This document shows, piece after piece, positions 160 to 33,520 of a DNA stretch of 33,550 nucleotides. Location: positions 1 through 33,550 of the IMG/VR virus record IMGVR_UViG_3300048010_000613; one strand, 5' to 3'. Position 1 is the first letter of the stretch. Each line of letters opens with the position of its first letter. The notes beneath the pieces are model-generated. The model was not told the DNA's origin and made no database searches. It saw only the letters and a list, made by a program, of their open reading frames with translations. The DNA comes from a virus. The translations under genes and the position numbers were made by a program.

Positions 160-186
160 AATGGTCGGGCCGACAGGATTTGAACC
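160..186. repeat. attL core of the integrated element (direct repeat of the tRNA-Pro 3' end)
   Basis: These 27 bases match 33424-33450 exactly, where they form the 3' end of the tRNA-Pro gene including its CCA. The sequences diverge immediately after base 186. The copy next to the intact tRNA is attR, so this one is attL and marks the left end of a roughly 33.3-kb insertion. Integration into a tRNA 3' end that is restored by the incoming att copy is typical of tyrosine integrases. The exact crossover point inside the 27 bases cannot be seen. Confidence 0.9.
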
Positions 187-593: not shown

Positions 594-594
594 C
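513..594. terminator. nested three-stem hairpin downstream of the first DUF3800 gene
   Basis: Three concentric palindromes are visible: GACACAC 513-519 with GTGTGTC 588-594, CGCCCCAG 531-538 with CTGGGGCG 577-584, and AAGAGCCC 543-550 with GGGCTCTT 554-561 (loop AGG). The innermost stem read on the minus strand ends in a short T-rich stretch and could end transcription of the minus-strand defence operon. The outer stem reaches the first base of the DUF3800 stop codon. The unusual depth of nesting could also mean a mobile-element scar or a structured RNA. Confidence 0.45.
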
Positions 595-1262
595 TAGACC
601 TCGGGCTTAGTCTCAAGCACAAACTTCAGCCGCTCCTGCACTACGGGCTTGATGATTTTATAAGAACGCTCGTCACCGTCGCGCAGATACCTAAACGCCG
701 CCCAGTTAAAGTAGTCTGCGATTTGGAGATCAAAGTTCGATTTACTGTCATGGTGATAGATTCTGTAGCGAGTGCCTTTTGGGAGCGCTTTGCTGAGCGT
801 CTGCTTCACGCCTTTTTCCACTTCGTTTCGCTTCTTGTTCACAGGAATCCGGTCAGTAAACACAATCACCTCCTTGAAGGCTCCTAGATCATGCGCCTCT
901 AACAGATGTAGAAGCAGTCGTTTCAGCAGGGGCTCGTAAAAGCCGTGTCCACGCCGAGTGTTTTCCTCGGATGCCCGCTTGTCGATGTAGACAGAGTCAA
1001 AGCGAACGCCCTCTAAGTTTTGTTCGATAATCGAGAATACTTCGTTTCGGGTATTTTGTTGATCCTCAGCCGCATGAAAATACTCAATATCGACGCCTTT
1101 CTCGACTAAGTCATACTTCAATTCATTCAATGCCTTGCAGGCATGAAACGGACGCTCCTTCGTGATCGCGCCAACTTGCAGGTAGGGGCTGCCACTGTTC
1201 GAGAAGTCAAAATCACCTGCCTCATCGAGGAAAATATACAAATATCTCGGATTATTAGCCAT
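594..1262 (-). CDS. DUF3800 protein (RNase H-like fold), last gene of the OLD-Mrr group
   Basis: This 222-aa protein has the DUF3800 hallmarks: YIFLDEAGDF near the N-terminus, FHAAEDQQ in the middle, an acidic VFTDR strand, and DLQIADYFNWA near the C-terminus. These acidic residues resemble the metal-binding positions of RNase H-like nucleases, but the biochemical activity of the family is not established. The ATG at 1262 is chosen over the TTG one codon upstream. The gene lies 37 bp after the Mrr-type gene on the same strand, so co-transcription is likely. DUF3800 genes are often seen in defence islands. A second DUF3800 gene ends the neighbouring restriction operon; the two share only the family motifs and are not recent duplicates. 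Confidence 0.85.
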   Translation of the reverse strand: MANNPRYLYIFLDEAGDFDFSNSGSPYLQVGAITKERPFHACKALNELKYDLVEKGVDIEYFHAAEDQQNTRNEVFSIIEQNLEGVRFDSVYIDKRASEENTRRGHGFYEPLLKRLLLHLLEAHDLGAFKEVIVFTDRIPVNKKRNEVEKGVKQTLSKALPKGTRYRIYHHDSKSNFDLQIADYFNWAAFRYLRDGDERSYKIIKPVVQERLKFVLETKPEV

Positions 1263-1299
1263 CAATTATTCTCAAATCACTCCTTGCCAATAGCACTTC

Positions 1300-2289
1300 T
1301 CAATCCGCTGGCCACAGCACCTTAATCAATGGCAGTAGCGTCCGCGCCTCGGTATCGAAATTATCGTAATGCGTTTCGATCAGGCGAGCAAAGCTGTCTA
1401 GGTCGAGTAGGGTGATGGGTATGTTCGCTCGGTCTGCTTCGTATTTGGCATCTTTGCTGAAGCCTCCGGTGGATAGGTAGATGCCTCGATCACCTGGTCG
1501 GAGGGCACCGATGAAGCTTCGGAGGTCTTGCGACCCGATGGTTGTATTCCGACGGTGCTTCACCTCTGCCTTGATGCGTGGCTCTAGCAACCCGAGTCCA
1601 TCGGGCGATGCAATGACGTCCACTCCGCGGTCGGGGCCGACGGGGCTCACCGTTGCTTTGAAGCCCATTGCTCGGAGTAAGCTAGCCAGCAGCTCTTCCA
1701 TTTCCTGATCGTCGAGCTGGACAATTTTATCCTTCACGCGCTCGCGCGCGTTTTCCTGTAGAGACCGCTTCGACTCTTCGCTGACTTCCTCGTCGCTTGG
1801 ATCTTCTGCTTCCGTCGCGCTGGACTTTCCCTCAAGTGCCGCTTGGACATCCGTCAAGATTTCTTCGGTTAAGCGGAATAGGGTCAGCGTGCTTCCTAGG
1901 CTGTTCCGGGTGGCAAGTTTCAGATCGTCCCTTGCGACCTGCTTACCTAGCCATGTGACTTTGCGTCGGTGTGGCAGCTCGTTCGACGAGTTTTCAAAGT
2001 AATAGTCGCTGGCAATCTCGCCCACCAAATATTTCCGTGTTCCGGGATCATAGGTGAGCACCTTGTCGCCTTGCTTTATTTCATTGGCGAAGCGATGGAG
2101 CATTCCCACGTCCCCGTTTGCTCTTGGTCCTGTTATCCCCGGGTTCTTAGTATTGTAGGCCTCACGTATTCCTTCGCGGTCGCGATTCGTCAGATCCATT
2201 GGTGTCCCGAAGCCAATCGCAACAAGACCTGATTCGAAGAGTTCAATATAGTCGCCGCCTCCGGAGCGGACCATCCATGCGTTTTTCAT
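1300..2289 (-). CDS. Mrr-type restriction endonuclease with N-terminal EVE/PUA-like domain
   Basis: This 329-aa protein ends in an Mrr_cat-type PD-(D/E)XK domain (about 190-329). The visible catalytic pattern is Asp224 (RGVDVI), Glu242-Val-Lys244 (AEVKHR) and the conserved Gln254 (GSQDLR). The N-terminal 100 residues (MVRSGGGDY..., then VAIGF) resemble the modified-base-binding EVE/PUA-like domain that precedes some type IV nucleases. An acidic linker (155-175) joins the two. Family knowledge suggests cleavage of DNA carrying foreign modifications; the specificity cannot be read. The gene lies between the OLD-like ATPase gene (80 bp upstream) and a DUF3800 gene (37 bp downstream), so the three may be one defence operon. 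The start is an ATG. Confidence 0.85.
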   Translation of the reverse strand: MKNAWMVRSGGGDYIELFESGLVAIGFGTPMDLTNRDREGIREAYNTKNPGITGPRANGDVGMLHRFANEIKQGDKVLTYDPGTRKYLVGEIASDYYFENSSNELPHRRKVTWLGKQVARDDLKLATRNSLGSTLTLFRLTEEILTDVQAALEGKSSATEAEDPSDEEVSEESKRSLQENARERVKDKIVQLDDQEMEELLASLLRAMGFKATVSPVGPDRGVDVIASPDGLGLLEPRIKAEVKHRRNTTIGSQDLRSFIGALRPGDRGIYLSTGGFSKDAKYEADRANIPITLLDLDSFARLIETHYDNFDTEARTLLPLIKVLWPAD

Positions 2290-2369
2290 AAGTTTGTAGT
2301 TTTGTGGCGGATTAATACAGGGTCTAGATGTTATCTATAATAGGACTAGCGAGTCTTGGATTCATAAAC

Positions 2370-4232
2370 TCAATCGATGACGGATTCGATGAAATCAAAG
2401 ATAGGCGTGAATCTTTGGAAACACTCGGGGCTTAGTGCGGGAATTATTTCATTCGCGAATTCTACCTTTTTGCCGGTGAATTTGATGAAATTGTCTGGCC
2501 GATCCGTATCGACCACGAAATAGCTTTCCAGCCCGTCCACGCCGTGAAACAACATCTCTATTGGGAATAATGATTTGTCCTTGTAGGTCTTTCCTGTGCT
2601 GCTGTTGATCACTTGGTTACTGATGGTCGAATCTTCAGGTATCGGCAGCATTAAGGCGTAGCTGTTCTCTCTGCGATGCTTCTTTGTCAGGCATTTGCAG
2701 GGGTCTTCTTCGATGGTATCTCCCTTGAAACCATTCCACTTGTTAAAAGCTTCATCGAAATCGAAAAGGGCAAAGAAGGTTCGAGTGGGATGATTGCGGT
2801 AGATCTCGTCGCGGGTGAGTAGGTTGCCGAGGAAATTACAATCAAACGCATTCTGTATTTCAAATGGGCAGTCGCGGTCTGGGTGCAATTTAGACCAGGC
2901 AGTCTCCAGTATAACCTCGTCTGTAATTCCTTCTGTAAAGAGCACTGCCCCGTCGGTATTCTTTAGCATATGCTGGATGTTTAGCCGGGCTTCTCTCTCC
3001 GAGAAGGTAATCAGACCCGCTGAAAGGGAATCAATGACTTTGGTTTTGGATGCCTTGGTCACTTTGACACTGCTTCCGTTGATCTCGAACAGGCTGATCA
3101 GTTGTTCGGGGCTTGCTGAGATCGTAGATGCACTGTGGCTGCTGAGTAGGACGTGGTTGCTTTCTGAGTCGATGGCTGAGATCTCGAACACCTGTGAGAG
3201 GAACTGATGTTGCCATTCCGGATGGAGAAAAGAGTCGGGCTCGTCGAGTAGGGTGAGGCAGTTGCGATCTTTAAATAGCTCGATGATCGAATAGATGTAT
3301 ACGGATTGAAACTGGCCGTCGCTGAAGAAGGAGCTCTGAGCGGGATCGCCACTTTCGAGGGTGAGTGGGAGCGACATGCTGCCGAGCATTCCGAGCACCT
3401 TTAGATTGTCGAATTGCCGGAATAGTTCCTGCGGAGTCAGTGCCGCAAACTCCGATTGGATCTTCGATATATCAAAATAGAGAATGTATTGGTCGTCGTT
3501 CGCCTGATAACCCTCGGTGCGGATTGGGCTATTGTCGTCTGCAGGAGAGATGCACTTGCTGAGCCGATCCAGGAAATCCTTCGTGATGCCCTTTGGTGAC
3601 CAAAATCGATCTTTCTCGTCGTTGTTGACTACATCATATTCTGGCGTCTTTGCGTAGTGCGGACGCTTGAGCACGAGCCTTAGTTCATCGCCAGTCTCTG
3701 CGATACTGAGCTTTTGGCGGACGAAGCGCCTGGCTGGATTATCGCTGGGCTGTATCAAGAGCGTTGACAACAAAAGTTCTTTGTATTCCGGCCCGACGCC
3801 CAAAAAATACCGACTCTCGCTTGCATCGGCACTCTTAATACGGCCTTGAAAGCGTTCTTCATAGTCTTGTATCAATTGTGAGACGGTTTCGTTGTGGCCG
3901 GAGTAGTAGACTAGGACATTGTCGGGCAACGGAGTCTGCCCCATTTTCTTACGTGACTTACCGTCTATTTTCAGTGCCCCTGCCTGCCATTCGATTTGAG
4001 TCTCCTTTCCCTCGATTTCGTAGCCGATACTGTAATCAAAATGAATATCAGCGCTGCTGCCCTTATCGAATTCGAAAAGGTGGCGAAATATCTCGATCAG
4101 TGCTTCGAAGAGGTTCGATTTGCCAGTTCCGTTCTTGCCGACGAAGACATCGAGAAAGCTCTCGCTCTCGAAGCTGAGTCTGAACTCTTTCAGATTCTTA
4201 TAATCGCTGATATATACTTCTTTGAGGCGCAT
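2370..4232 (-). CDS. OLD-family ATPase with C-terminal TOPRIM-like nuclease domain
   Basis: This 620-aa protein opens with an ABC-type ATPase. Walker A is GKNGTGKS (32-39), a degenerate signature is SDGQFQS (304-310), Walker B is CLTLLDEPDSF (325-334), and a switch His sits in LLSSHSAS (366). After residue 425 comes a TOPRIM-like region with LFTEGITDE (Glu434) and FALFDFDEA (Asp491, Asp493). This order is that of OLD-family overcoming-lysogenization-defect nucleases, known anti-phage proteins that sense phage proteins or DNA and act as nucleases. Some abortive-infection systems of similar layout (PARIS-like fusions) are an alternative. It is the first gene of a three-gene same-strand group with Mrr and DUF3800, and starts about 150 bp after the restriction operon. 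Confidence 0.85.
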   Translation of the reverse strand: MRLKEVYISDYKNLKEFRLSFESESFLDVFVGKNGTGKSNLFEALIEIFRHLFEFDKGSSADIHFDYSIGYEIEGKETQIEWQAGALKIDGKSRKKMGQTPLPDNVLVYYSGHNETVSQLIQDYEERFQGRIKSADASESRYFLGVGPEYKELLLSTLLIQPSDNPARRFVRQKLSIAETGDELRLVLKRPHYAKTPEYDVVNNDEKDRFWSPKGITKDFLDRLSKCISPADDNSPIRTEGYQANDDQYILYFDISKIQSEFAALTPQELFRQFDNLKVLGMLGSMSLPLTLESGDPAQSSFFSDGQFQSVYIYSIIELFKDRNCLTLLDEPDSFLHPEWQHQFLSQVFEISAIDSESNHVLLSSHSASTISASPEQLISLFEINGSSVKVTKASKTKVIDSLSAGLITFSEREARLNIQHMLKNTDGAVLFTEGITDEVILETAWSKLHPDRDCPFEIQNAFDCNFLGNLLTRDEIYRNHPTRTFFALFDFDEAFNKWNGFKGDTIEEDPCKCLTKKHRRENSYALMLPIPEDSTISNQVINSSTGKTYKDKSLFPIEMLFHGVDGLESYFVVDTDRPDNFIKFTGKKVEFANEIIPALSPECFQRFTPIFDFIESVID

Positions 4233-4382
4233 GGGAATTATTACTGTGAGCTTAGCGTCACTGAATGGGCTCTTCGCGTGGTTTAGATTTCTCGACTTTT
4301 CTGTTGCTCTCGGCGGAAGATTTCATTCGTTTATGTATAAATGGATTGGGAGTGCCCGGTCGGCGTATGGGTTTCGGTGAGT

Positions 4383-5249
4383 TCACCGAGGCCCTTCGCT
4401 TTTTATGGAGGGCACGATTTTTAGGCCCCATCCGTCGAAGTCCTCGCCCACCTTGGGGCGCCCGCCTTTGCAGTAGAATTTGTGTTTTAGCACGTCAAAT
4501 GAGCGGTTTGGCTGCTCGGGACGCAATATTCGTAGCCCGACGGGTCGAGCCACGAGGTCAGCCACTTGTAAGCCCGACGACATCGCCTTCTTGTCGGCAA
4601 ATAGAATCTCAAAGGGCAGTTGAATGCCTCGGGAGTTGTTGCCGTCGCAGATCCGACGAAATTCGAGTTCGAGCTCTTTATCCTCTTTGGCGCCTCGACG
4701 CTCGACGACTACGTGGGTCAGTTGTTCGTGCTCTTCTTTCTCGACTAAAAAGTCATACAGGCTGAATATGCAGTGCATCAGCGCGATGTGGTAAGGGTTG
4801 TCGGGAGTCTCCGTGATTTTACGCAGTCGCTGCTTGTCGATCACACAGCTGGCCAGGATGAAATTACTGTCCTCAACGATCGTGGTTAGGTCGTTGAGGA
4901 AGGCGTTCTTGGCCGCGCGGTTAGGGAAGAAGCTGAAGGCTCCTTTTTCTTTACGTATTTCATGCTCGTGTAGCACTACTTGGTCATGGCCGAAATGCTT
5001 GAACTTGAAGGCTTCGAGCGCGGGGACGACTTTTTCGCCGTAGTGCCTCTTGTGGAAAATACAAAATGCGAGGACGAAGATCGGGTAGCTTTTGTCGATC
5101 GAGACCATGCTATGGTCACCACTTTCATCGACGTAGACGATGTATTTGCCAAAGGGTCGATCGCTACTCGGCACCGTTTTGTTAGTCGCTGCGGCAGGAC
5201 GCTCTTCCTCGGCGAACTGGTTGAAAAGCGGTAGATCCTTCTGTTCCAT
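4383..5249 (-). CDS. DUF3800 protein, fourth gene of the type I restriction operon
   Basis: This 288-aa DUF3800 protein carries YIVYVDESGDHS (about 36-47), HEHEIR, VVERRGAKED and SGLQVADLVARP near the C-terminus. These are the acidic positions expected of the RNase H-like fold. The N-terminal 30 residues look like a poorly ordered extension. Its ATG lies 3 bp after the hsdS stop codon, so it is almost certainly translated from the hsdRMS message. Such tight linkage suggests a role in or alongside restriction, for example processing or nuclease activity on invading nucleic acid, but no function is established. Its C-terminus (WGLKIVPS) is a usual family ending. Confidence 0.88.
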   Translation of the reverse strand: MEQKDLPLFNQFAEEERPAAATNKTVPSSDRPFGKYIVYVDESGDHSMVSIDKSYPIFVLAFCIFHKRHYGEKVVPALEAFKFKHFGHDQVVLHEHEIRKEKGAFSFFPNRAAKNAFLNDLTTIVEDSNFILASCVIDKQRLRKITETPDNPYHIALMHCIFSLYDFLVEKEEHEQLTHVVVERRGAKEDKELELEFRRICDGNNSRGIQLPFEILFADKKAMSSGLQVADLVARPVGLRILRPEQPNRSFDVLKHKFYCKGGRPKVGEDFDGWGLKIVPSIKSEGPR

Positions 5250-5252
5250 CGC

Positions 5253-6965
5253 TTATGCTTGCACAGTCGCCTGCTCGACCAGGCAATCGGCAAGCTTGAG
5301 CTGGGTGGCTTGGGCGCTTTTGAGCTGCGCTTGGAGGCGGTCGCAGAGAGACATCAGCTCGTCGACTTTGGCGACGATGCGGTGTTGTTCGGGTAGGGGG
5401 GGGAGAGGCACCAGAAAGCCTTTTATGTCCCTCATCGATATATTGTCGTTTGTAGAGTTTTTCGCTTCGCGAATCACCTCCTGAGTGAGCTCCGACTGAA
5501 TCAGAATATTGAGATAATTTGATGTGACCGCTTCAGATGCTCTTATCGTGGCTACTCGCTGGTTGACTAGCATGGGTTCAGTAAGCGCCCTTACATGAAG
5601 GCTCTTTCCCACTGTTCCTCCGGTCATCGCCATAAGTATATCGCCGCCTCTGAGGCTGAATTTTATGAGCTCAGGAGAGAATGAGTGCCTTACGATCTTA
5701 GCATCTTTAAAACCATACTCATCGAAGTCGGAGATTCGAACGACTCGTGTGCCCTCATCAGAGTAGTCGCTGCTCTTGAATGCAAAACCGCCGTTGATTG
5801 TGGCTAGTTGATCTAGGTTCGACCATGTCCATGCCGGTGGAATCTTGAATGGAGCCTCTGGTTTGGAATCGGAACTAAACAAGCTGGGGTTCCCAGTGGC
5901 CTTCGCCGGTTCATCCCCGGGGTCTTGCTCGACGAGTTTGCCCATGACGGCGAGTTGGAGGATGGTTTGTTTGAGTTGCTCGATGCTGCTTTCGGTGGTG
6001 AAGAGGCTGTCGAAGTGGGCTGCGATGCGTTGCCAGGCGCTGGAAAACTGGCCTTGCTCGCTTGCGGTCGTCAGCGCTTCCAGTAGGGCTGAAACCAGTT
6101 TGGTGTGCGCGCTCATGCTGTCGGCCTGCTGCTGCTCCAGTTGGTCGCAGAGCGCCATTAGCTCATCCACCTTCGCGACGATGCGCGTTTGCTCGGCTAG
6201 GGGTGGGAGGGGGATTAATGTTTCGACTATCTTCTTTTGGTTAATTGAAGACTGGCCAATAGCATGTTGAGCAATTGCGAGAAAAAATCCCGATAGCCGA
6301 AGTTGATTGATGCACAAATCCACGTAAGAAGTGTTAATTATACCGCTGGGCCTTAGCAGGAGTAAGTTAACTCCATGGTATAATTCACTATTACCGATGA
6401 AAACTGCGGTTTTGGCTACGTGATAGTCGCTGTTAATATGCGAGAGGAGGATGTCTCCGCTGTGTAGCTTGTAGTAATCGCGTTTCTCTTCAGGTAGATT
6501 TGTCGTAAAGCCTACTTTCTCTAGGTTTACAGTTGAATCGGAAATTGTTTCTATTCGAGTCAGGGGGTGGCCATTGCCACTTTTATCTTGTTTACCTGAG
6601 AAACCATTGGAAATTCTGTTGAGGAGATTTCCAAGTTTAACGAGTTCCCAACCAGTAGGTTGAGAGCTGAGAAGGCTCTTCGCCTCAACTGGTGCTAGTG
6701 CCTTTTGTTTTTTTATTTTGCCTTCTTTAATTTGCTCAGCCTTTTCTGCTTCGATTCTCTTCAGCAACTCTGAAGCCGGCTCATCATTCGGATCCTGCGG
6801 CACCAGCATGCCACGCACCGCCAATTCCAGAATCAGCTCGCGAAGCTTATTGATGCCATAGAGTTCCTGCTTTTTACCTCCGCCGCGACCGGATGCGGAC
6901 TTGGCTTTGATCGCACCTGTCCAAGTGTCGAGGTGCTCGGTGATGAGTTTTTCGGCGATGGGCAT
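5253..6965 (-). CDS. hsdS: type I restriction-modification specificity subunit HsdS
   Basis: This 570-aa protein has two target-recognition domains (about 105-250 and 380-510), each followed by a near-identical conserved segment: LPPLAEQTRIVAKVDELM and LPPLPEQHRIVAKVDELM. These are the spacer helices that bind HsdM. Each target-recognition domain reads one half of a bipartite DNA site. The ATG overlaps the hsdM stop (TAATG). An eight-base homopolymer (G8 on the plus strand, 5396-5403) lies near codon 521, close to the second conserved segment. A slippage there would replace the last roughly 50 residues. The two conserved segments also give homologous DNA for domain shuffling. It assembles with HsdM and HsdR in the cytoplasm. 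Confidence 0.95.
   Translation of the reverse strand: MPIAEKLITEHLDTWTGAIKAKSASGRGGGKKQELYGINKLRELILELAVRGMLVPQDPNDEPASELLKRIEAEKAEQIKEGKIKKQKALAPVEAKSLLSSQPTGWELVKLGNLLNRISNGFSGKQDKSGNGHPLTRIETISDSTVNLEKVGFTTNLPEEKRDYYKLHSGDILLSHINSDYHVAKTAVFIGNSELYHGVNLLLLRPSGIINTSYVDLCINQLRLSGFFLAIAQHAIGQSSINQKKIVETLIPLPPLAEQTRIVAKVDELMALCDQLEQQQADSMSAHTKLVSALLEALTTASEQGQFSSAWQRIAAHFDSLFTTESSIEQLKQTILQLAVMGKLVEQDPGDEPAKATGNPSLFSSDSKPEAPFKIPPAWTWSNLDQLATINGGFAFKSSDYSDEGTRVVRISDFDEYGFKDAKIVRHSFSPELIKFSLRGGDILMAMTGGTVGKSLHVRALTEPMLVNQRVATIRASEAVTSNYLNILIQSELTQEVIREAKNSTNDNISMRDIKGFLVPLPPLPEQHRIVAKVDELMSLCDRLQAQLKSAQATQLKLADCLVEQATVQA
5396..5403. repeat. G8 homopolymer inside hsdS
   Basis: A run of eight G on the plus strand (eight C in the coding strand) falls within the codons for LPPLP of the second conserved segment of HsdS. 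The matching position in the first conserved segment (about 6209) is broken up. Runs of this length can slip in replication and are a usual basis for phase-variable type I specificity genes. Confidence 0.5.
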
Positions 6966-8458
6966 TATTTGTCTCCCGTTAGGGCGTTGGCCAAAATGGA
7001 TTTCAATTCGTCGCGCAGGCTTTGGATACTGCTTTGCTGTATGGCGTAGTCGGCGAGCAGTTCTTCGGGGTCGTGCTCTTCTGCTGCCTCCACGTGCGGG
7101 TTGCTGATGTCGAGGTTGTAGTTGCGCGCTGCGATGTCTTCGATGCTGACTTTCCAGGCTTGCTCGGTCTCTTGGCGGCTGGCGAAGCCGTCGGCCTCAG
7201 TGCCCCACCAGTCGATCTCAGCCTGGAACTCTTCGAAGCGCATCGGCTTGGTCTTGTTATAGCTGACCACGCCTTCGGGGTAAGGGTGCTCGTAATACCA
7301 GACTGCTTTAGTGGCGGGTTGCTCGTTCTCGGGCTTCTTGGTAAAGAAGAGCACATTCGTCTTAATCCCGGTGTAGGGGTTGAAGACGCCATTGGGTAAA
7401 CGCACGATGGTGTGCAGGTGGCACTTTTCCAACAGGTCTTGCTTGAGGCGGGTCTTCATGCCTTCGCCGAAGAGGAAACCATCAGGCAGGACGACGGCGG
7501 CGCGGCCATTGTTTTTCAGCAGCTTGATGACGAGCGCCATAAAGAGATCGGCAGTTTCGCGGGTGCGATAGGTGGCGGGAAATTGATTCTCGACGCCATC
7601 TTCTTCGGTGCCGCCGAAGGGGGGATTGGTCACGATTACGTTTTTACGATCCTTCTCGCCGTAGTCAACGTAGGCACGGCAGCTAAGCATGTTGTCGTGG
7701 CGGATGTTGGTGGGTGTGTCGATGCCGTGCAGGATCATGTTGGTCGTGCAGAGCATGTGGGGTAGTGCCTTCTTTTCCACGCCGTGGATGCTGTCGACCA
7801 GTGTCTCTTCATCCTTTGCGGCTTTGACGTAGCGGCTGCGCTTGTGGTCGATCGTGCAGGCGAGAAAGCCGCCGGTGCCGCAAGCGGGGTCGAGCACGGT
7901 CTCGTGGAGCTGTGGGTCCACGCGGTTCACGATAAACTGGGTGACAGCGCGTGGGGTGTAGAACTCGCCGGCATTACCTGCGCTCTGCAGATCTTTGAGG
8001 ATCTGCTCGTAGATGCTGCCGAAGGTGTGGCGGTCTTCGGTGTTGTTGAAGTTGATCTCGCAGATTTTGTTGACCACCTGGCGAATCAGGGTGCCGGACT
8101 TCATGTAGTTGTAGGCATCTTCGAAGACGTTGCGGATCACTTGAGCGCGTTTGCCGTTCGGCCCTTCGAGCACGAGCTTTTCCTTTAGGGTGGGGAAGAG
8201 CTCGTCGTTGATGAATTTGTTCAGCGTTTCGCCGGTCATGCCCTCGGGGTCGGCGGCCCAGTTGCGCCAGCGTAGCTGCTCGGGCAGGGGCGACTGGTAG
8301 TCGTCTTCGAGGAGCTCGATCTCCTCTTCGCGGTCGTCGTAGATTTTCAGGAAGAACATCCAGACGAGCTGGCTGATGCGCTGCGCGTCGCCGTCGACGC
8401 CGACGTCCTTACGCATGATGTCCTGAATGGATTTAATGGTGCCGCTTACATTGCTCAT
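6965..8458 (-). CDS. hsdM: type I restriction-modification DNA methyltransferase subunit HsdM
   Basis: This 497-aa protein has the HsdM N-terminal helical domain followed by an N6-adenine methyltransferase domain. The S-adenosylmethionine motif is DPACGTGGF (190-198) and the catalytic motif NPPF is at 278-281 (IVTNPPFGG). Motif order and length are normal for the family. Two copies with one HsdS make the modification enzyme that protects host DNA. Its start overlaps the hsdR stop by four bases (ATGA) and its stop overlaps the hsdS start, so the three genes are translationally coupled. Confidence 0.97.
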   Translation of the reverse strand: MSNVSGTIKSIQDIMRKDVGVDGDAQRISQLVWMFFLKIYDDREEEIELLEDDYQSPLPEQLRWRNWAADPEGMTGETLNKFINDELFPTLKEKLVLEGPNGKRAQVIRNVFEDAYNYMKSGTLIRQVVNKICEINFNNTEDRHTFGSIYEQILKDLQSAGNAGEFYTPRAVTQFIVNRVDPQLHETVLDPACGTGGFLACTIDHKRSRYVKAAKDEETLVDSIHGVEKKALPHMLCTTNMILHGIDTPTNIRHDNMLSCRAYVDYGEKDRKNVIVTNPPFGGTEEDGVENQFPATYRTRETADLFMALVIKLLKNNGRAAVVLPDGFLFGEGMKTRLKQDLLEKCHLHTIVRLPNGVFNPYTGIKTNVLFFTKKPENEQPATKAVWYYEHPYPEGVVSYNKTKPMRFEEFQAEIDWWGTEADGFASRQETEQAWKVSIEDIAARNYNLDISNPHVEAAEEHDPEELLADYAIQQSSIQSLRDELKSILANALTGDK

Positions 8459-10809
8459 GCTGTGTGCTGTTGTTCAAAGAGTTCGCGCTCCATGTCCTGG
8501 AGGGCCGTTTCGTAGTTTGCTTTCCCGCCGAAGGCTTTATTGATGATCTCGACGGGGGTGCCCATCTGATCGAAGGGAGTGAGTTTCAAGACTTTCGGGC
8601 TCTCGATGGTGAGCACGCCCTCGTCGGCGTATTTCGCTAAGAGGGCTTCGAGCACGGCGCGGGCTTCTGCGCCGTATTTGGTGAAGTAGTTGCGCTTCTT
8701 TACATTCTCCGCGCGCTCCTTGCGCGTGAGCGGTGGCTGGTCGTAAGCAATGTGGCAGATTAGGTCGAAGTCGCCATAGTCGTGGCCCACTTCCTGGGCT
8801 AGCTTGTCGAGCTCGATGCCGTATTCTTCAAGCTCTGCGACGATGGCTTGTTTCTTCTTCGTGGCGTTCCACTTGTTTACAAAGTCGTCGAGTGAGGCGT
8901 ATTCCTTCAATATGTTTTTCCGGCTGTAGTCGCGGTAAGACTCGGTCACCATCTGCCCGTCTTCGCCGCGGTATTCGACGCGCTCGGAGAGGATCTTCAC
9001 CTCTAGATTACCCACGTAGACTTTCTTGGCGTTGAAGCTGGCTTGTTCTTCTTCAACGTAGTCCGCTTCTGGGTCATCATCGGGGTCGGGTGGCACGGGA
9101 TCGTCATCGTCGGGGTCGGGCTCATAGATCACGACGGGCTCGCCGTCGAACTCGGGGTCGGAGAAGAGCTTGGTTGCATTTTTGAAATCCATCACGGTGA
9201 AGAAGAACTTTCCGTGCTCTTCTTCGATGCGTGTGCCGCGGCCCACGATCTGCTTGAAGGTGGTCATCGAGTTGATCGTCTTGTCGAGGACGATGAGCTT
9301 GCAGGTCTTGGCATCGACTCCGGTGGTGAGTAGCTCGGATGTGGTGGCGATCACGGGGAACTTGCTCTCTGGGTCGATGAAGTTGTCGAGTTCGGCTTTG
9401 CCCTCTACGCTGTCACCTGTGATGCGCATCACGTATTTTGGGTTGTCGAGTGCGAGCTTACCCGCGGCGTTGGTAATCGCCACACGCATACGCTCGGCGT
9501 GGTCGATGTCTTCGCAAAAGATGATCGTCTTCGAGTAGGGATCGGTGGCGTTGAGTAGCTTCATCACGCACTTGGCCACGAGCTTGGTGCGTTGATTCAG
9601 CACGAGCTTGCGGTCCATGTCCTGCTGGTTGTATTCGCGCTGCTCGATTTCCTGCCCGAGGTCGTCGACCATGCCTGCCGGTGGTGTCCATCCTTCGAGG
9701 TCGCGGTCGATGTTGTAGCGGACGACTTTGTAGGGGGCGAGAAAACCGTCTTCGATGCCTTGCTTGAGGGTGTAGCTGTAAACCGGCTCGCCGAAGTAGG
9801 TGATGTTGGAAGTGTATTTCGTTTCCTTGGGCGTGGCAGTCAGGCCGATTTGTGTCGCGCCAGAAAAGTATTCAAGAATCTCCCGCCATGCCGAATCTTC
9901 GGAGGCACTGCCTCGGTGGCACTCGTCGATCACTATCAGGTCGAAAAAGTCGCGCGAGACGGTCTTAAAAATCTTATCGACTTCTTCGGGGCCAGTGAGG
10001 GCTTGATAGAGCCCAAGGTATATCTCGTAAGACGGATCTATTTTACGGTTCTTGATCTTGGTCATGACCGAGCCGAATGGCTTGAAATCGTTGACCAGCG
10101 TCTGATCGGCAAGCACGTTTCGGTCGACTAGGAAGAGTGTGCGTTTGGCTTTGTGGGCCTTCCAGAGTCGATAGATGATCTGGAAGGTGGTGTAGGTCTT
10201 ACCTGTGCCGGTGGCCATCACTAGAAGCAGTCTGTTTTGGCCTTTGGCTACTGCTTCAATCGAGCGATTGATCGCCTCGCTCTGATAGTAGCGCGGCTCC
10301 TTGCCTTGGGCGTCTTTGTAGTAGGGCTCTAGGACGAGTGCTTCATCCTCATCCTCAATACCGCGGTATTTTTTGTAGCGACTCCAAAGAGCCGCTGGAG
10401 AAGGAAATGCATCGAGTGGGAATTGACATTCGATATCTTCGCCTGCTTCGGGGAATTTGTTGTAAGATGCAAAGGCATCGCCGTTTGAGCTAAAGGCACT
10501 GGGAACATTCAGATCGACCGCATAGCTGAGAGCTTGCTGTATGCCGTGGCTTACGGAGTGGTTATTCTCCTTCGCTTCAACAACGGCAATGGGCACGCCG
10601 GTTTCTCGAAGAAGCGCGTAGTCGGCGCGGCGGCTCTTTTTCTTGTTACGAGAGGACATGTTACCTCGAACGATAACCGGACCGGGTGAAATCGGGTATT
10701 CGCGCCGAATCTGGGTCATCGGATCCCAGTGAGCATTCTTGATTGCGGGCGTGATAAACAGATCGCAAATGTCGCTCTCGCTTAGGTCCTTTTTCTCTTC
10801 CGGGGTCAT
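8455..10809 (-). CDS. hsdR: type I restriction enzyme subunit HsdR (EcoEI-like)
   Basis: This 784-aa protein starts with a PD-(D/E)XK nuclease domain (Asp63 in RADYALL, Glu78-Ala-Lys80 in VVEAKENN). An SF2 translocase follows: Walker A ATGTGKT (199-205), DECH box (295-298), TATP (about 320) and the QIVGRGTR motif VI. After it comes a very acidic Asp-Pro linker built on a short DNA repeat (about 9071-9120), and a C-terminal domain of the EcoEI_R_C type that contacts the methyltransferase. It pulls DNA through the bound complex and cuts it when sites are unmethylated. It is the first gene of the R-M-S order, 72 bp downstream of the HTH-nuclease regulator gene, which may control it. Confidence 0.96.
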   Translation of the reverse strand: MTPEEKKDLSESDICDLFITPAIKNAHWDPMTQIRREYPISPGPVIVRGNMSSRNKKKSRRADYALLRETGVPIAVVEAKENNHSVSHGIQQALSYAVDLNVPSAFSSNGDAFASYNKFPEAGEDIECQFPLDAFPSPAALWSRYKKYRGIEDEDEALVLEPYYKDAQGKEPRYYQSEAINRSIEAVAKGQNRLLLVMATGTGKTYTTFQIIYRLWKAHKAKRTLFLVDRNVLADQTLVNDFKPFGSVMTKIKNRKIDPSYEIYLGLYQALTGPEEVDKIFKTVSRDFFDLIVIDECHRGSASEDSAWREILEYFSGATQIGLTATPKETKYTSNITYFGEPVYSYTLKQGIEDGFLAPYKVVRYNIDRDLEGWTPPAGMVDDLGQEIEQREYNQQDMDRKLVLNQRTKLVAKCVMKLLNATDPYSKTIIFCEDIDHAERMRVAITNAAGKLALDNPKYVMRITGDSVEGKAELDNFIDPESKFPVIATTSELLTTGVDAKTCKLIVLDKTINSMTTFKQIVGRGTRIEEEHGKFFFTVMDFKNATKLFSDPEFDGEPVVIYEPDPDDDDPVPPDPDDDPEADYVEEEQASFNAKKVYVGNLEVKILSERVEYRGEDGQMVTESYRDYSRKNILKEYASLDDFVNKWNATKKKQAIVAELEEYGIELDKLAQEVGHDYGDFDLICHIAYDQPPLTRKERAENVKKRNYFTKYGAEARAVLEALLAKYADEGVLTIESPKVLKLTPFDQMGTPVEIINKAFGGKANYETALQDMERELFEQQHTA

Positions 10810-10881
10810 TAGTTGATAAGTAACATTGCTAATAAGCTAACTGATATAAACTTAATGAAGTTGTAAAGTAGGGAGTGTTGG

Positions 10882-11529
10882 TCATAGTTCCAAGCTCGTG
10901 TTTAAGTGTAAAACGATTTCGTGCAAACAGACAAAGTCAGGCGGTGCTCCCTCCTCGTGGTAAGGCACTACAATCACCACACGCTCACACCCCAAGCCTT
11001 CCTTCAATAGCTCCGCCATCGCTAAAGTCTTCTCCGGATCACGGCCCGCATTCGCCTTACACTCCAGCGCGATCCGTTTCCCGTCCTTCTCGATCAAAAA
11101 GTCAGTCGAGTAAATCCCTTCGCAGTAGTCTTGCTGGTAGGCGATGCCAGCCTTATCTAGCTCCCGGGCCACGCTGCGCTTGAAGAGGATGGCTTGCGTC
11201 TTGCGCTCGAGAAACTGCTCGGCCCGTAGGCTCAGGAGTTCTTTCTCAGCGGATGGATTATTGCTGGGTTCGTTGTCTTCGATGAGTTGCTCGCTGCCAG
11301 CGAAGGCTGACACGAGTTTTTGTTCTTCGTCTTTAGTTGTGCAGAGCACTTTGCACATGCGTGTAAAGGTATTCTGCCGTGGACGGCTGGCACCATTCAT
11401 GATCTTGCTGATCGAAGTCGCGCTGACACCGATCTTTTTGCCCAGCTCATAAGCCTTCAATCCACGTAGCCGGAGGAGCATCTTAATGGTCTCTCCGAGG
11501 GGATTTGTTGGGGGTTCAGCGGCAGTCAT
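10882..11529 (-). CDS. XRE-family regulator fused to a PD-(D/E)XK-like domain
   Basis: This 215-aa protein has an XRE/Cro-type helix-turn-helix at about 12-65 (KAYELGKKIGVSATSISKIM). The second half (110-210) reads as a restriction-endonuclease-like fold: Asp143 in STDFLIEKDG, then Glu156-Cys-Lys158 in IALECKANAG, followed by a helix and the strand RVVIVVP. The D-(12)-ExK spacing is that of PD-(D/E)XK enzymes. It sits at the divergent point between the defence genes, which follow on the same strand, and the replication operon on the other. It could be the element's master repressor, with the nuclease-like part as a sensor, or the controller of the restriction operon. Both roles are inferred. 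Confidence 0.75.
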   Translation of the reverse strand: MTAAEPPTNPLGETIKMLLRLRGLKAYELGKKIGVSATSISKIMNGASRPRQNTFTRMCKVLCTTKDEEQKLVSAFAGSEQLIEDNEPSNNPSAEKELLSLRAEQFLERKTQAILFKRSVARELDKAGIAYQQDYCEGIYSTDFLIEKDGKRIALECKANAGRDPEKTLAMAELLKEGLGCERVVIVVPYHEEGAPPDFVCLHEIVLHLNTSLEL

Positions 11530-11634
11530 GAGTGTGCTTAGAGAATAAAGTGGAAGCCGTTAGCTGACGTCCAACTTCAATTGAGTGTCGTCTGCATGGT
11601 TCGGTGATTAATTTGTGCATGGTGCGTGAATAAC

Positions 11635-11686
11635 TTAAAGAAAGGTGCGGAATCAAGAGTAAACTTAAAGAAGGATTAAAGAAAGG
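11635..11686 (+). promoter_or_regulatory. three TTAAAGAA(A)GG direct repeats, candidate operator
   Basis: TTAAAGAAAGG is at 11635-11645, TTAAAGAAGG at 11665-11674, and TTAAAGAAAGG at 11676-11686. They sit in the 255-bp divergent intergenic region between the XRE-type regulator and the excisionase-like gene. An imperfect inverted repeat (GAAAGTGAGCGCT 11701-11713 against 11738-11754) follows. Either could bind the XRE protein or the small HTH protein. Confidence 0.5.
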
Positions 11687-11784
11687 ACTTGTCAGTGTAT
11701 GAAAGTGAGCGCTTTTTCGAGTTATCCAATGCCAATTAGCGCACTCACTCTTTCAGTAGATTCACAAGCAAAAATTTCAGAACC

Positions 11785-12000
11785 ATGTCCGATCAAGCCG
11801 CACCTACGCTCTCCCCAAAAGAAGTCGCTCTACAGCTTGGACTCTGCACTAAGACTGTTCTTAAGCTGATTAAGGAAGAGGATATCGCGCCGGTCTATCG
11901 GATGAATAAGCGCGTGATTCGTATCCCTCAGGCATCGGTAGATCGCTATCTACGTGCCTGCGCTGGTCACTCCGAGGCAGCACCAGCGCGCGCTGGCTAG
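11785..12000 (+). CDS. small HTH protein, excisionase/AlpA-like
   Basis: This 71-aa protein is a MerR-superfamily winged HTH of the helix_turn_helix_17/excisionase type: LSPKEVALQLGLCTKTVLKL is the HTH, followed by the wing (RVIRIPQASVDRYL). Such proteins serve as recombination directionality factors or as activators of integrase and replication genes in phages and satellites (AlpA in P4). It is the first gene on the plus strand, divergent from the XRE-type regulator, so it is well placed as the first gene of the induced programme. The Arg/Ala-rich last 15 residues look disordered. Confidence 0.75.
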   Translation: MSDQAAPTLSPKEVALQLGLCTKTVLKLIKEEDIAPVYRMNKRVIRIPQASVDRYLRACAGHSEAAPARAG

Positions 12001-32097: not shown

Positions 32098-33369
32098 TTA
32101 TTCCTTCTGGGCAATCACATACCGCCCCTCCTTCTTCTCCATCGGCGGCAGCTTCTCACCCTCGGGCACGATCGACCAAAACGAATCCGCCTCCTCGACG
32201 CTTTTCATATCTAGATAGTGCTTACGGATAATTGCCTCTGAGTTGCCCGCTTGGAGCGCGGCATCGCCAACGGAACGGAAGGCTCCGACGGTCATCGAAA
32301 TGTAAGTGTGGCGCATCACGTCCGGAGGCAGCTTCCAGTGTTTGCGGATTTCGCGGAACATATGCTTTAGCCGACGGGTTGGTAGGATCGGATACTCGTC
32401 CAGCGGATATTTCTCCAGCCACTTGCGGAGGTTCGGCTGGATCTTCACACTGCGTTTTTCATTCACCTTTGAGACCTCGGGCTCTATGAAAATAACGTCG
32501 GTATCCATACGCACATGCTCAGGGCGAAGGCTGCTCATTTCGCCCGTTTCCCAATCGGGCCGAATGCCCGCAAAGAGAGTCAGGGCAAAGTAGGGAACCA
32601 TGCAGCCAGGCACGCCCCACCATTTGCCGTCCTTGTTCTGCTGCCCTTTGTAGGACTCGAGCCAGTGCATAAACTCTTTCGCCTGCTTTGCGGAGAGCGT
32701 CGCGGCGGTGCCTCGTGCTTTCTGGATTTTAAACTGCTGAACGTAAATCACTGGATCGGCGGCCACATGCTTCTTAAGCAGGCAAAACTTGTAGAAGGTG
32801 CTCAGATAGCCGCGACGGTTGTTCCAGGTCTTCAGCGAGACCGCATTGCGAGCCTGGGGCAGTTTACCTTCCAGATACTCCTTAAGTTCCTCACTGCTGA
32901 TCGTGTCGATAGTTCGCTCTGCGAACACCTTCTTGAAGGTTTCCATCTCCGCACGGATGTTCTTGTATTGCCTCAGGCTAATGAGGCCCCGCGTCTGGTC
33001 CATCGAGCGCGCGTCCATGTAGCCATCGACCACATCCTCGACCTGTGCGGCATGCTCCGCTTCGCGGTAGTGCTCGATCAGGTAGTTGACTGCGAAGGTC
33101 AGTGATTTCTGGAACTTCGCACGTTTAAGGATGTTGACCGCCGCGATCGCATCACGGTTCTGATCATGCGTGAGAGTCGTCCAGACGGTCTGGCCGTCTG
33201 ACTCGCCGTTGAGGCGCTCGACCTCATATTCCTGACGCTGGGCAACTGCCTCAGCACGCGATTTGTAGTTTTCGCGGATCCGCTTCCCGTTAAGGGTGCC
33301 GGAAAGCCGCCAAGCCTTGCCACCACTGGGGTTGGTGAACTCGGAGATTTTGAATTTAGATTTAGACAT
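32098..33369 (-). CDS. int: tyrosine site-specific integrase
   Basis: This 423-aa protein (ATG 33369; a TTG at 33387 would add six residues) has an N-terminal arm-binding part, a core-binding helical part (about 95-200) and a C-terminal catalytic domain. Visible catalytic pieces are LFAGIRPDW (Arg), MRHTYISM (Arg) and RKHYLDM (nucleophile Tyr). The position usually His in HxxR is Asp here (DVMR), and the later His/Trp is Asn (AGNSEAII). Such changes occur in related integrases but are worth noting. It lies beside attR and the tRNA-Pro target. The inverted repeat at its start contains the arm-type octamer, so autorepression is likely. Confidence 0.93.
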   Translation of the reverse strand: MSKSKFKISEFTNPSGGKAWRLSGTLNGKRIRENYKSRAEAVAQRQEYEVERLNGESDGQTVWTTLTHDQNRDAIAAVNILKRAKFQKSLTFAVNYLIEHYREAEHAAQVEDVVDGYMDARSMDQTRGLISLRQYKNIRAEMETFKKVFAERTIDTISSEELKEYLEGKLPQARNAVSLKTWNNRRGYLSTFYKFCLLKKHVAADPVIYVQQFKIQKARGTAATLSAKQAKEFMHWLESYKGQQNKDGKWWGVPGCMVPYFALTLFAGIRPDWETGEMSSLRPEHVRMDTDVIFIEPEVSKVNEKRSVKIQPNLRKWLEKYPLDEYPILPTRRLKHMFREIRKHWKLPPDVMRHTYISMTVGAFRSVGDAALQAGNSEAIIRKHYLDMKSVEEADSFWSIVPEGEKLPPMEKKEGRYVIAQKE

Positions 33370-33376
33370 GGAATTA

Positions 33377-33404
33377 ATATTTGCCAATTAGGATTGGCAA
33401 ATAT
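33377..33404. promoter_or_regulatory. 12-bp inverted repeat at the integrase start, probable arm site and operator
   Basis: ATATTTGCCAAT (33377-33388) and ATTGGCAAATAT (33393-33404) form a perfect inverted repeat with a 4-base spacer. It contains the same TGGCAAAT octamer as the left arm and sits directly upstream of the likely integrase ATG (33369). Binding of the integrase here could both build the attR complex and repress its own gene. That role is inferred. Confidence 0.6.

Positions 33405-33423: not shown

Positions 33424-33520
<97 letters not shown>

Follow-up and report, generated by a model that had tools for sequence, protein, structure and literature searches.

An XRE-type regulator with a putative restriction-endonuclease-like C-terminal domain heads varied defence operons in phages and in one bacterial order

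DNA-binding repressors that head unrelated immune operons have been described as CapW/BrxR, CapH with CapP, and CapK with CapS (PMC13373217; for BrxR, PMC9122589), and the families treated in the available part of the 2026 paper (PMC13373217) sense DNA damage by WYL, protease, or kinase modules. A further transcriptional repressor, RptR, adjoins and represses type I restriction-modification (RM) islands and is described as a small TetR-like dimer binding TAGCTA (PMC12255303). HTH_3 and PD-(D/E)XK domains were predicted in 2005 to be combined in COG1395 (the archaeal PAB2104 family), whose members are annotated as regulators (PMC1189080, as far as its available text goes). Additionally, a defence hotspot between cI and the integrase gene is reported in Vibrionaceae prophages, according to the available part of PMC9122126.

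The window, that is, the whole stretch of DNA analyzed here, comprises the 33,550 bases of a virus record and looks like an integrated prophage. The regulator under study, referred to below as XRE-REase, lies on the minus strand 72 bp upstream of hsdR-hsdM-hsdS and is encoded on the same strand, so that it heads a type I restriction operon; this position was absent from the original prediction. Replication genes lie beyond the divergent excisionase-like gene and run away from the regulator. The features of the window are as follows.

160..186, plus strand: attL-like 27-bp repeat, identical to 33424-33450
594..1265, minus strand: second DUF3800 gene of the cargo run (PF12686, 1.9e-11)
1300..2289, minus strand: PDC-S02/Mrr_cat gene of the cargo run (PADLOC PDC-S02, 6.7e-77; Mrr_cat, 3.5e-21)
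2370..4232, minus strand: PtuA-like AAA ATPase gene of the cargo run (PADLOC PtuA1, 4.8e-60)
4383..5249, minus strand: DUF3800 gene of the cargo run (PF12686, 3.4e-17)
5253..6965, minus strand: hsdS (Methylase_S, 1.8e-26)
6965..8458, minus strand: hsdM (N6_Mtase, 3.1e-77)
8455..10809, minus strand: hsdR (ResIII, 9.6e-45; EcoEI_R_C, 4.8e-38)
10882..11529, minus strand: XRE-REase regulator gene (ATG start, 215 aa)
10885..11241, minus strand: putative PD-(D/E)XK-like domain, residues 97-215 (weak PF18741 match; hhalign 91% with shuffle control)
11056..11064, minus strand: codons of E156-C157-K158
11101..11103, minus strand: codon of D143
11323..11499, minus strand: XRE helix-turn-helix domain, residues 11-69 (Pfam HTH_31, 4.7e-9; HTH_3, 1.8e-8)
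11530..11784, no strand: divergent intergenic control region between the regulator and the excisionase-like gene
11632-11642, 11662-11672, and 11676-11686 (span 11632..11686), no strand: candidate operators, direct repeats around TTAAAGAA
11785..12000, plus strand: divergent HTH_17/excisionase-like gene, the first early gene (HTH_17, 4.9e-10; phrog_66, 1.3e-6)
32098..33387, minus strand: integrase gene at the other prophage end (phrog_1, 4.8e-16)
33424..33450, plus strand: attR-like 27-bp repeat, identical to 160-186, at the 3' end of tRNA-Pro (33426-33502)

The operon-head position of XRE-REase is the same as that of CapW/BrxR, CapH with CapP, and CapK with CapS, and the N-terminal domain of CapH is among the structures that the helix-turn-helix (HTH) part of its model resembles. 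The position of an immune-operon regulator is thus known already; what differs here is the candidate sensor domain. In the Cap systems, as described in the available part of PMC13373217, the sensor is a WYL protein in one case and a separate protease or a kinase pair in the others, whereas in XRE-REase it would be a PD-(D/E)XK-like domain of the same chain. In contrast to CapW/BrxR proper, the window protein has no WYL domain (Pfam, E ≤ 1), and in contrast to CapH with CapP proper, no separate protease gene was found among the scanned window neighbours (Pfam). Like the C proteins of type II RM systems, XRE-REase has an XRE-type HTH and a gene directly ahead of restriction genes; however, the solved C proteins consist of the HTH only and have about 75-80 residues, whereas XRE-REase has 215 residues and a second domain and precedes a type I RM system here and many non-RM systems elsewhere. 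No nuclease-like domain is described for RptR in the available text of PMC12255303, and this description sets it apart from XRE-REase. Because COG1395 combines both domain types, the fusion of HTH and PD-(D/E)XK domains is not without precedent. The order reported in the available part of PMC1189080 is an N-terminal PD-(D/E)XK domain, a central HTH, and a C-terminal inactive PD-(D/E)XK domain, all in archaeal proteins, in contrast to the HTH at residues 11-69 and the single C-terminal domain of XRE-REase; defence operons are not mentioned for COG1395 in that part of the paper. With CI-type lysogeny repressors and their hotspots, XRE-REase shares the XRE repressor divergent from the early genes and the cargo on the integrase side. 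In contrast to CI/LexA-type repressors, it lacks an S24 peptidase (self-cleavage) domain (window protein, Pfam, E ≤ 1) and also heads chromosomal defence operons. No account of an XRE-REase family heading defence operons was found in the open literature, a scope that leaves aside most subscription papers and preprints available only on bioRxiv.

The gene at 10882-11529 had been called an XRE-type repressor from its letters, and the XRE part of this assignment holds: both HTH matches exceed the Pfam cut-offs (36.9 bits against 27 for HTH_31 and 34.7 against 23 for HTH_3), and an HTH match was found in 12 of 13 scanned members of the family. Searches of NCBIfam and PHROGs with the window protein returned nothing beyond HTH-type or sub-cut-off matches. 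In the full-length AlphaFold model (mean pLDDT 59.4, pTM 0.38), the fold search returned HTH matches, the HTH part resembling C.BclI and C.Esp1396I in addition to CapH.

The C-terminal domain occupies the place where a CI-type repressor has its cleavage domain and is, judging by profile comparison, near a restriction-endonuclease family. The family in question, REase_MTES_1575 (PF18741), which we take to be a member of the PD-(D/E)XK superfamily clan, matches the window protein with an E-value of 0.0031 and 18 bits, below the cut-off of 38.2. At E ≤ 0.1, it matches 9 of 13 aligned members (best 2.5e-4), all of these single-sequence matches being sub-cut-off. Alignments were compared by hhalign, one comprising 11 domain sequences of PF18741 from genomes within the same bacterial order and the other 24 C-domain sequences. 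With default settings, the probability was 91% (E 1.1e-6, 44 columns), and D143 and E156 aligned with the conserved Asp and Glu of PF18741. After removal of gappy columns, the probability was 86% with a score of 36.1, which was reached by none of 200 column shuffles (best shuffle 17.8); under another option, it was 52%, and one of 150 shuffles, an outlier with a score of 130, reached the value. No profile match was obtained to the Mrr-like protein encoded in the window itself, and no nuclease was matched in sequence searches of the PDB.

The residues D143, E156, C157, and K158 are located exactly where the original prediction had placed them, and their conservation goes beyond chance. Counts were made over 21 distinct XRE-type members, leaving out L023, L035, and L002, the last being nearly identical to L003. 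D143, C157, N160, and R163 are invariant (21/21). Position 156 is Glu in 20 members and Asp in one, L026, which is the most divergent member; position 158 is Lys in 18 and Arg in three (L024, L118, and L119), and these three still precede defence genes. Loss of the D, E, and K residues in orthologues had been named as grounds for abandoning the assignment. The acidic pair is retained throughout, with Asp once in place of Glu, while the lysine is replaced by arginine in the three members named and in four of six aligned cousins with a ribbon-helix-helix-like N-terminus.

For the fold prediction proposed at the outset, models were built from six sequences, and that of the C-terminal domain has low confidence (mean pLDDT 59.2, pTM 0.51). 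It consists, in order, of a helix, two strands on which D143 and E156-K158 are located, a helix, and a strand, an order that would suit a restriction-endonuclease core; no significant Foldseek match was obtained with it, and in a VIA search the Z-scores were 5.5 or lower with no nuclease among the matches listed, an absence to which we give no weight. The models being too weak to confirm it, the putative restriction-endonuclease fold is assigned from the profiles and from motif conservation. The original prediction is thus supported in part: profiles and motif favour the fusion of an XRE repressor to a PD-(D/E)XK-like domain, the fold models standing at a mean pLDDT of 59.

Relatives of the window protein were picked by protein similarity and not by neighbouring genes. 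The window protein alone had no match in the phages and viral_contigs collections and only HTH-region matches among plasmids; the C-terminal domain alone had none in phages or plasmids. The first relatives, 51% identical, were found on two metagenome-assembled genome (MAG) contigs, L003 (labelled Opitutales) and L002 (labelled Lentisphaerae), in both of which the regulator overlaps hsdM by 4 bp. Among plasmids, the L003 regulator had an HTH-region match only, and those of L024 and L025 had none. A three-row alignment (A1) had no match in viral_contigs, and a search with alignment A5 returned three records already found. The C-terminal domain was found in 12 of 387 genomes of the phylum and, at 1e-10, in 28 of 273 genomes of one order, which includes the L003 genome; a repeat search drew the same matching genomes. 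All 12 genomes of the phylum search reappear in the order search, and the family is therefore seen only in that order within the phylum sample. It was also found in four viral records. Thus, the XRE-REase family found so far belongs to one bacterial order and to phages.

The type I RM contigs L002 and L003 are nearly identical (98.8% for HsdM) despite their Lentisphaerae and Opitutales labels, which would be accounted for by a recent transfer or by a misbinned contig. The idea that all phages having the RusA-like gene of the window carry the regulator locus was tried and given up: 48 loci were fetched and 24 scanned, and no XRE-REase was found. The two genes were seen together only in L037 and L038, which are the records of L032 and L033. 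In L036, the closest by its RusA-like gene, the record starts 384 bp before that gene and contains no member. A cousin family (L027-L031 and L126-L135) has a D...E-C-(K/R)-x-N domain behind the ribbon-helix-helix-like N-terminus, a label given by appearance, with no such Pfam match in the five cousins scanned. These genes stand alone among housekeeping-type genes and for that reason were left out of the counts of defence regulators.

Among the 24 XRE-type loci, 21 were readable; L020, L023, and L035 were dropped as having the downstream sequence missing or the gene cut. In 15 of the 21 readable loci, a defence gene follows next on the same strand, and in 17 one is present anywhere along the same run. 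In most loci, XRE-REase is the first gene, on the same strand as the cargo and often overlapping it by 1-4 bp. The systems found behind it are type I, II, and III restriction, BREX, Hma, DUF499/DUF1156, DrmD-like, PDC-S46, and SIR2-HerA, as listed by locus.

Window: next gene hsdR
L002 and L003: next gene hsdM
L019: next gene HmaA
L021: next gene BrxF
L022: next gene PDC-S46
L024: BrxA, then BrxB and BrxC
L025: DrmD-like helicase, then HEC-06 and a type III methylase
L026: N-terminal fragment of HmaA
L032: DUF499, then DUF3780 and DUF1156
L033: HmaA, then HmaB
L034: type II methylase, then type II restriction enzyme
L117: two genes without a match, then a DUF1156-like methylase and a SNF2 helicase
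L118: N6_N4 methylase, with a type III restriction gene further on
L119: type II methylase across a 660-bp gap
L120: a gap of 826 bp and an unmatched gene, then metallophosphatase, LmuB-like, SIR2, and HerA genes
L121: BrxF, then BrxC
L122-L125 (one clade): no defence run behind the regulator

When 12 of the next genes were compared with PADLOC, 11 matched better than 1e-8, the one without a match being that of L117. In contrast, none of ten same-strand next genes behind ordinary XRE genes matched PADLOC at 1e-8. The control set consisted of 26 ordinary XRE loci from ten of the same genomes; the loci not represented among these ten had no close same-strand next gene, were duplicates, or were short. 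XRE-REase genes also head chromosomal defence operons distant from visible phage genes. The presence of the family at the head of many unrelated defence sets suggests a shared on/off switch with a sensor recycled from a nuclease.

The cargo differs behind closely related regulators. L032 and L033 come from two sister phages, the backbone of which resembles the window (88-89% identity for the RusA-like gene and 59% for the excisionase-like gene). Over the stretch that reaches to about codon 192 of the regulator, their DNA shows 98.2% identity, and the similarity ends there; 194 of the first 195 residues of the two regulators are identical, and the last ~25 codons differ. Behind this junction, L032 has DUF499/DUF3780/DUF1156 and L033 has Hma, at the place where the window has its type I RM genes. 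Similarly, two regulators of one genome (L118 and L119, genome G781) share 88% identity, which extends to a point within 6 nt of the stop codon's end; past it, the cargo is of type III in the one and type II-like in the other. Moreover, cargo types are intermixed on the regulator tree. We propose, with the same confidence as for the overall explanation given below, a module made up of the regulator and its promoter, behind which one defence system can replace another.

Repeats that resemble operators were found upstream of some of these genes. The hexamer CTTTAA, picked after the sequences had been looked at, occurs 15 times on both strands, in 8 of 15 upstream regions, against 2.8 in shuffled sequences, and none of 500 shuffles reached this number; an unbiased scan of 7-mers in 15 promoters gave nothing significant. 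The arrangement CTTTAA-N3-CTTTAA was found at only three sites in 184 loci and the window (~1.03 Mb of distinct sequence), and all three precede an XRE-REase start codon by 38-48 bp and are followed by TTGA(C/T). They stand before the PDC-S46 (L022), BREX (L024), and SIR2-HerA (L120) operons, the regulators of which form one clade; the L022 and L024 regions have no other DNA similarity by blastn. In the window, the repeats between the divergent genes are candidates only. Their block is partly conserved in the sister phages, and the operator assigned to it is a guess, because the spacing of the repeats differs from that in the three operons. In 10700-11900, a scan for sigma-70 promoters detected none.

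In the window, in its sister phages, and in the separate phage of L034, the regulator is divergent from the early genes, and the divergent control point that had been foreseen is real, the interval 11530-11784 parting it from the excisionase-like gene. The cargo is on the integrase side, directly in L034 and, in the window, once the ends are joined at the att repeats. No second XRE-type repressor was found among the ORFs of the window (ORF list, PHROGs). Because of this position and of the lack of another XRE-type repressor in the window, the phage-borne regulator is probably the lysogeny repressor. The suggestion that the protein may link restriction to induction of the element stands on its restriction side, since the gene heads a restriction operon and its relatives head other defence operons; control of prophage induction may be surmised from gene position.

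Our main reading, to which we assign a probability of roughly 60%, is that XRE-REase is a self-contained repressor of defence operons, probably serving as lysogeny repressor in phages, with a DNA sensor derived from a nuclease. The XRE domain would bind repeats upstream of its own gene and would set by this binding the level of the operon that it heads, comprising both regulator and defence cargo; phage versions would also repress the divergent early genes. The C-terminal domain would act as the sensor, binding DNA ends or foreign or damaged DNA via the D/E/K site, and this binding would alter repression, while defence systems could be swapped behind the module of regulator and promoter. We favour the sensing of DNA ends or of foreign DNA because the retained D and E, with K sometimes replaced by R, suit DNA and metal binding over obligatory cleavage. 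Against the main reading stand the low confidence of the C-domain model, Arg at position 158 in three members, the sub-cut-off PF18741 scores, the clade L122-L125, the gaps of 660 and 826 bp in two loci, the choice of CTTTAA after inspection, the differing repeat spacing in the window, the single clade behind the three shared repeats, and the negative sigma-70 scan. We hold more tentatively, as a possible wider view, that the proteins form a further family of immune-operon regulators in which a restriction-enzyme fold, its catalytic D/E and mostly its K retained, serves as sensor of a one-protein repressor, that in phages a single DNA-sensing event frees the prophage and switches the exchangeable cargo, and that the regulator-operator module is the docking point for this cargo.

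The main rival to a sensor is an active nuclease: a small autoregulated effector that would cut invading or own DNA and add a layer to the downstream system. The nearly complete D...E-x-K site in 18 of 21 members and the defence gene context would agree with this, as would the standalone and fused backup REases beside BREX described in the available part of PMC12839542. However, the members having Arg at position 158 all still head defence operons, the gene position is that of a regulator, and most restriction-type cargo already has a nuclease of its own, so we regard this alternative as unlikely. The fold might instead be kept as a dimerisation surface or ligand pocket for a non-DNA signal, such as a nucleotide or one of the proteins encoded by the downstream system, with timing after entry into a new host as in C proteins. 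A specific ligand is suggested by the invariant C157, N160, and R163 beyond the catalytic residues, and the change of the last ~25 residues with the cargo in L032 and L033, the likeness of the HTH model to C.BclI and C.Esp1396I, and the proposal in the available text of PMC12839542 that inactive REase domains are nucleotide sensors are further points in favour of this explanation. A bare scaffold, however, would not need D143 and E/D156 in all 21 members, and cargo devoid of a toxic nuclease/methylase pair, e.g., SIR2-HerA, requires no timing; we consider this explanation rather doubtful too.

A chance neighbourhood, in which the gene is an ordinary XRE repressor of phage or chromosome that lies in defence islands by accident, would be helped by the clustering of defence genes, by the abundance of XRE genes in the same genomes, and by the four members (L122-L125) without defence neighbours. 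It is very improbable in view of the regulator's place in most loci as first gene on the cargo strand, often with an overlap of 1-4 bp, the 0/10 result at control XRE genes, and the retention of the regulator while the cargo is swapped. The reading as a self-contained repressor with a DNA sensor bears on how antiphage operons stay quiet and when they switch on, and, if true, a nuclease fold as sensor is a different solution from the WYL, protease, and kinase modules.

XRE-REase can also serve as a handle gene: in its home order, a defence system is the likely content of the sequence behind it, also in runs such as that of L117, whose first genes match no family. In that locus (L117:5160-8891), genes for 912 and 330 aa lie between XRE-REase and the DUF1156-like methylase gene and have no match in PADLOC or Pfam; their products are candidates for new defence components. 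In L022 (869-8526), the PDC-S46 ATPase gene is followed by genes with weak similarity to JetB and JetC, and this run is possibly a divergent Wadjet-like system, judging from these similarities. In the window, four extra same-strand genes (two DUF3800, PtuA-like ATPase, and PDC-S02/Mrr) are located behind hsdS at 594-5249. Near the 27-bp repeat at 160-186, fragments of the tRNA-Pro end region were found at 52-64 and 90-103, one a 14-bp direct and one a 13-bp inverted copy, and these extra fragments may mark earlier or tandem integrations.
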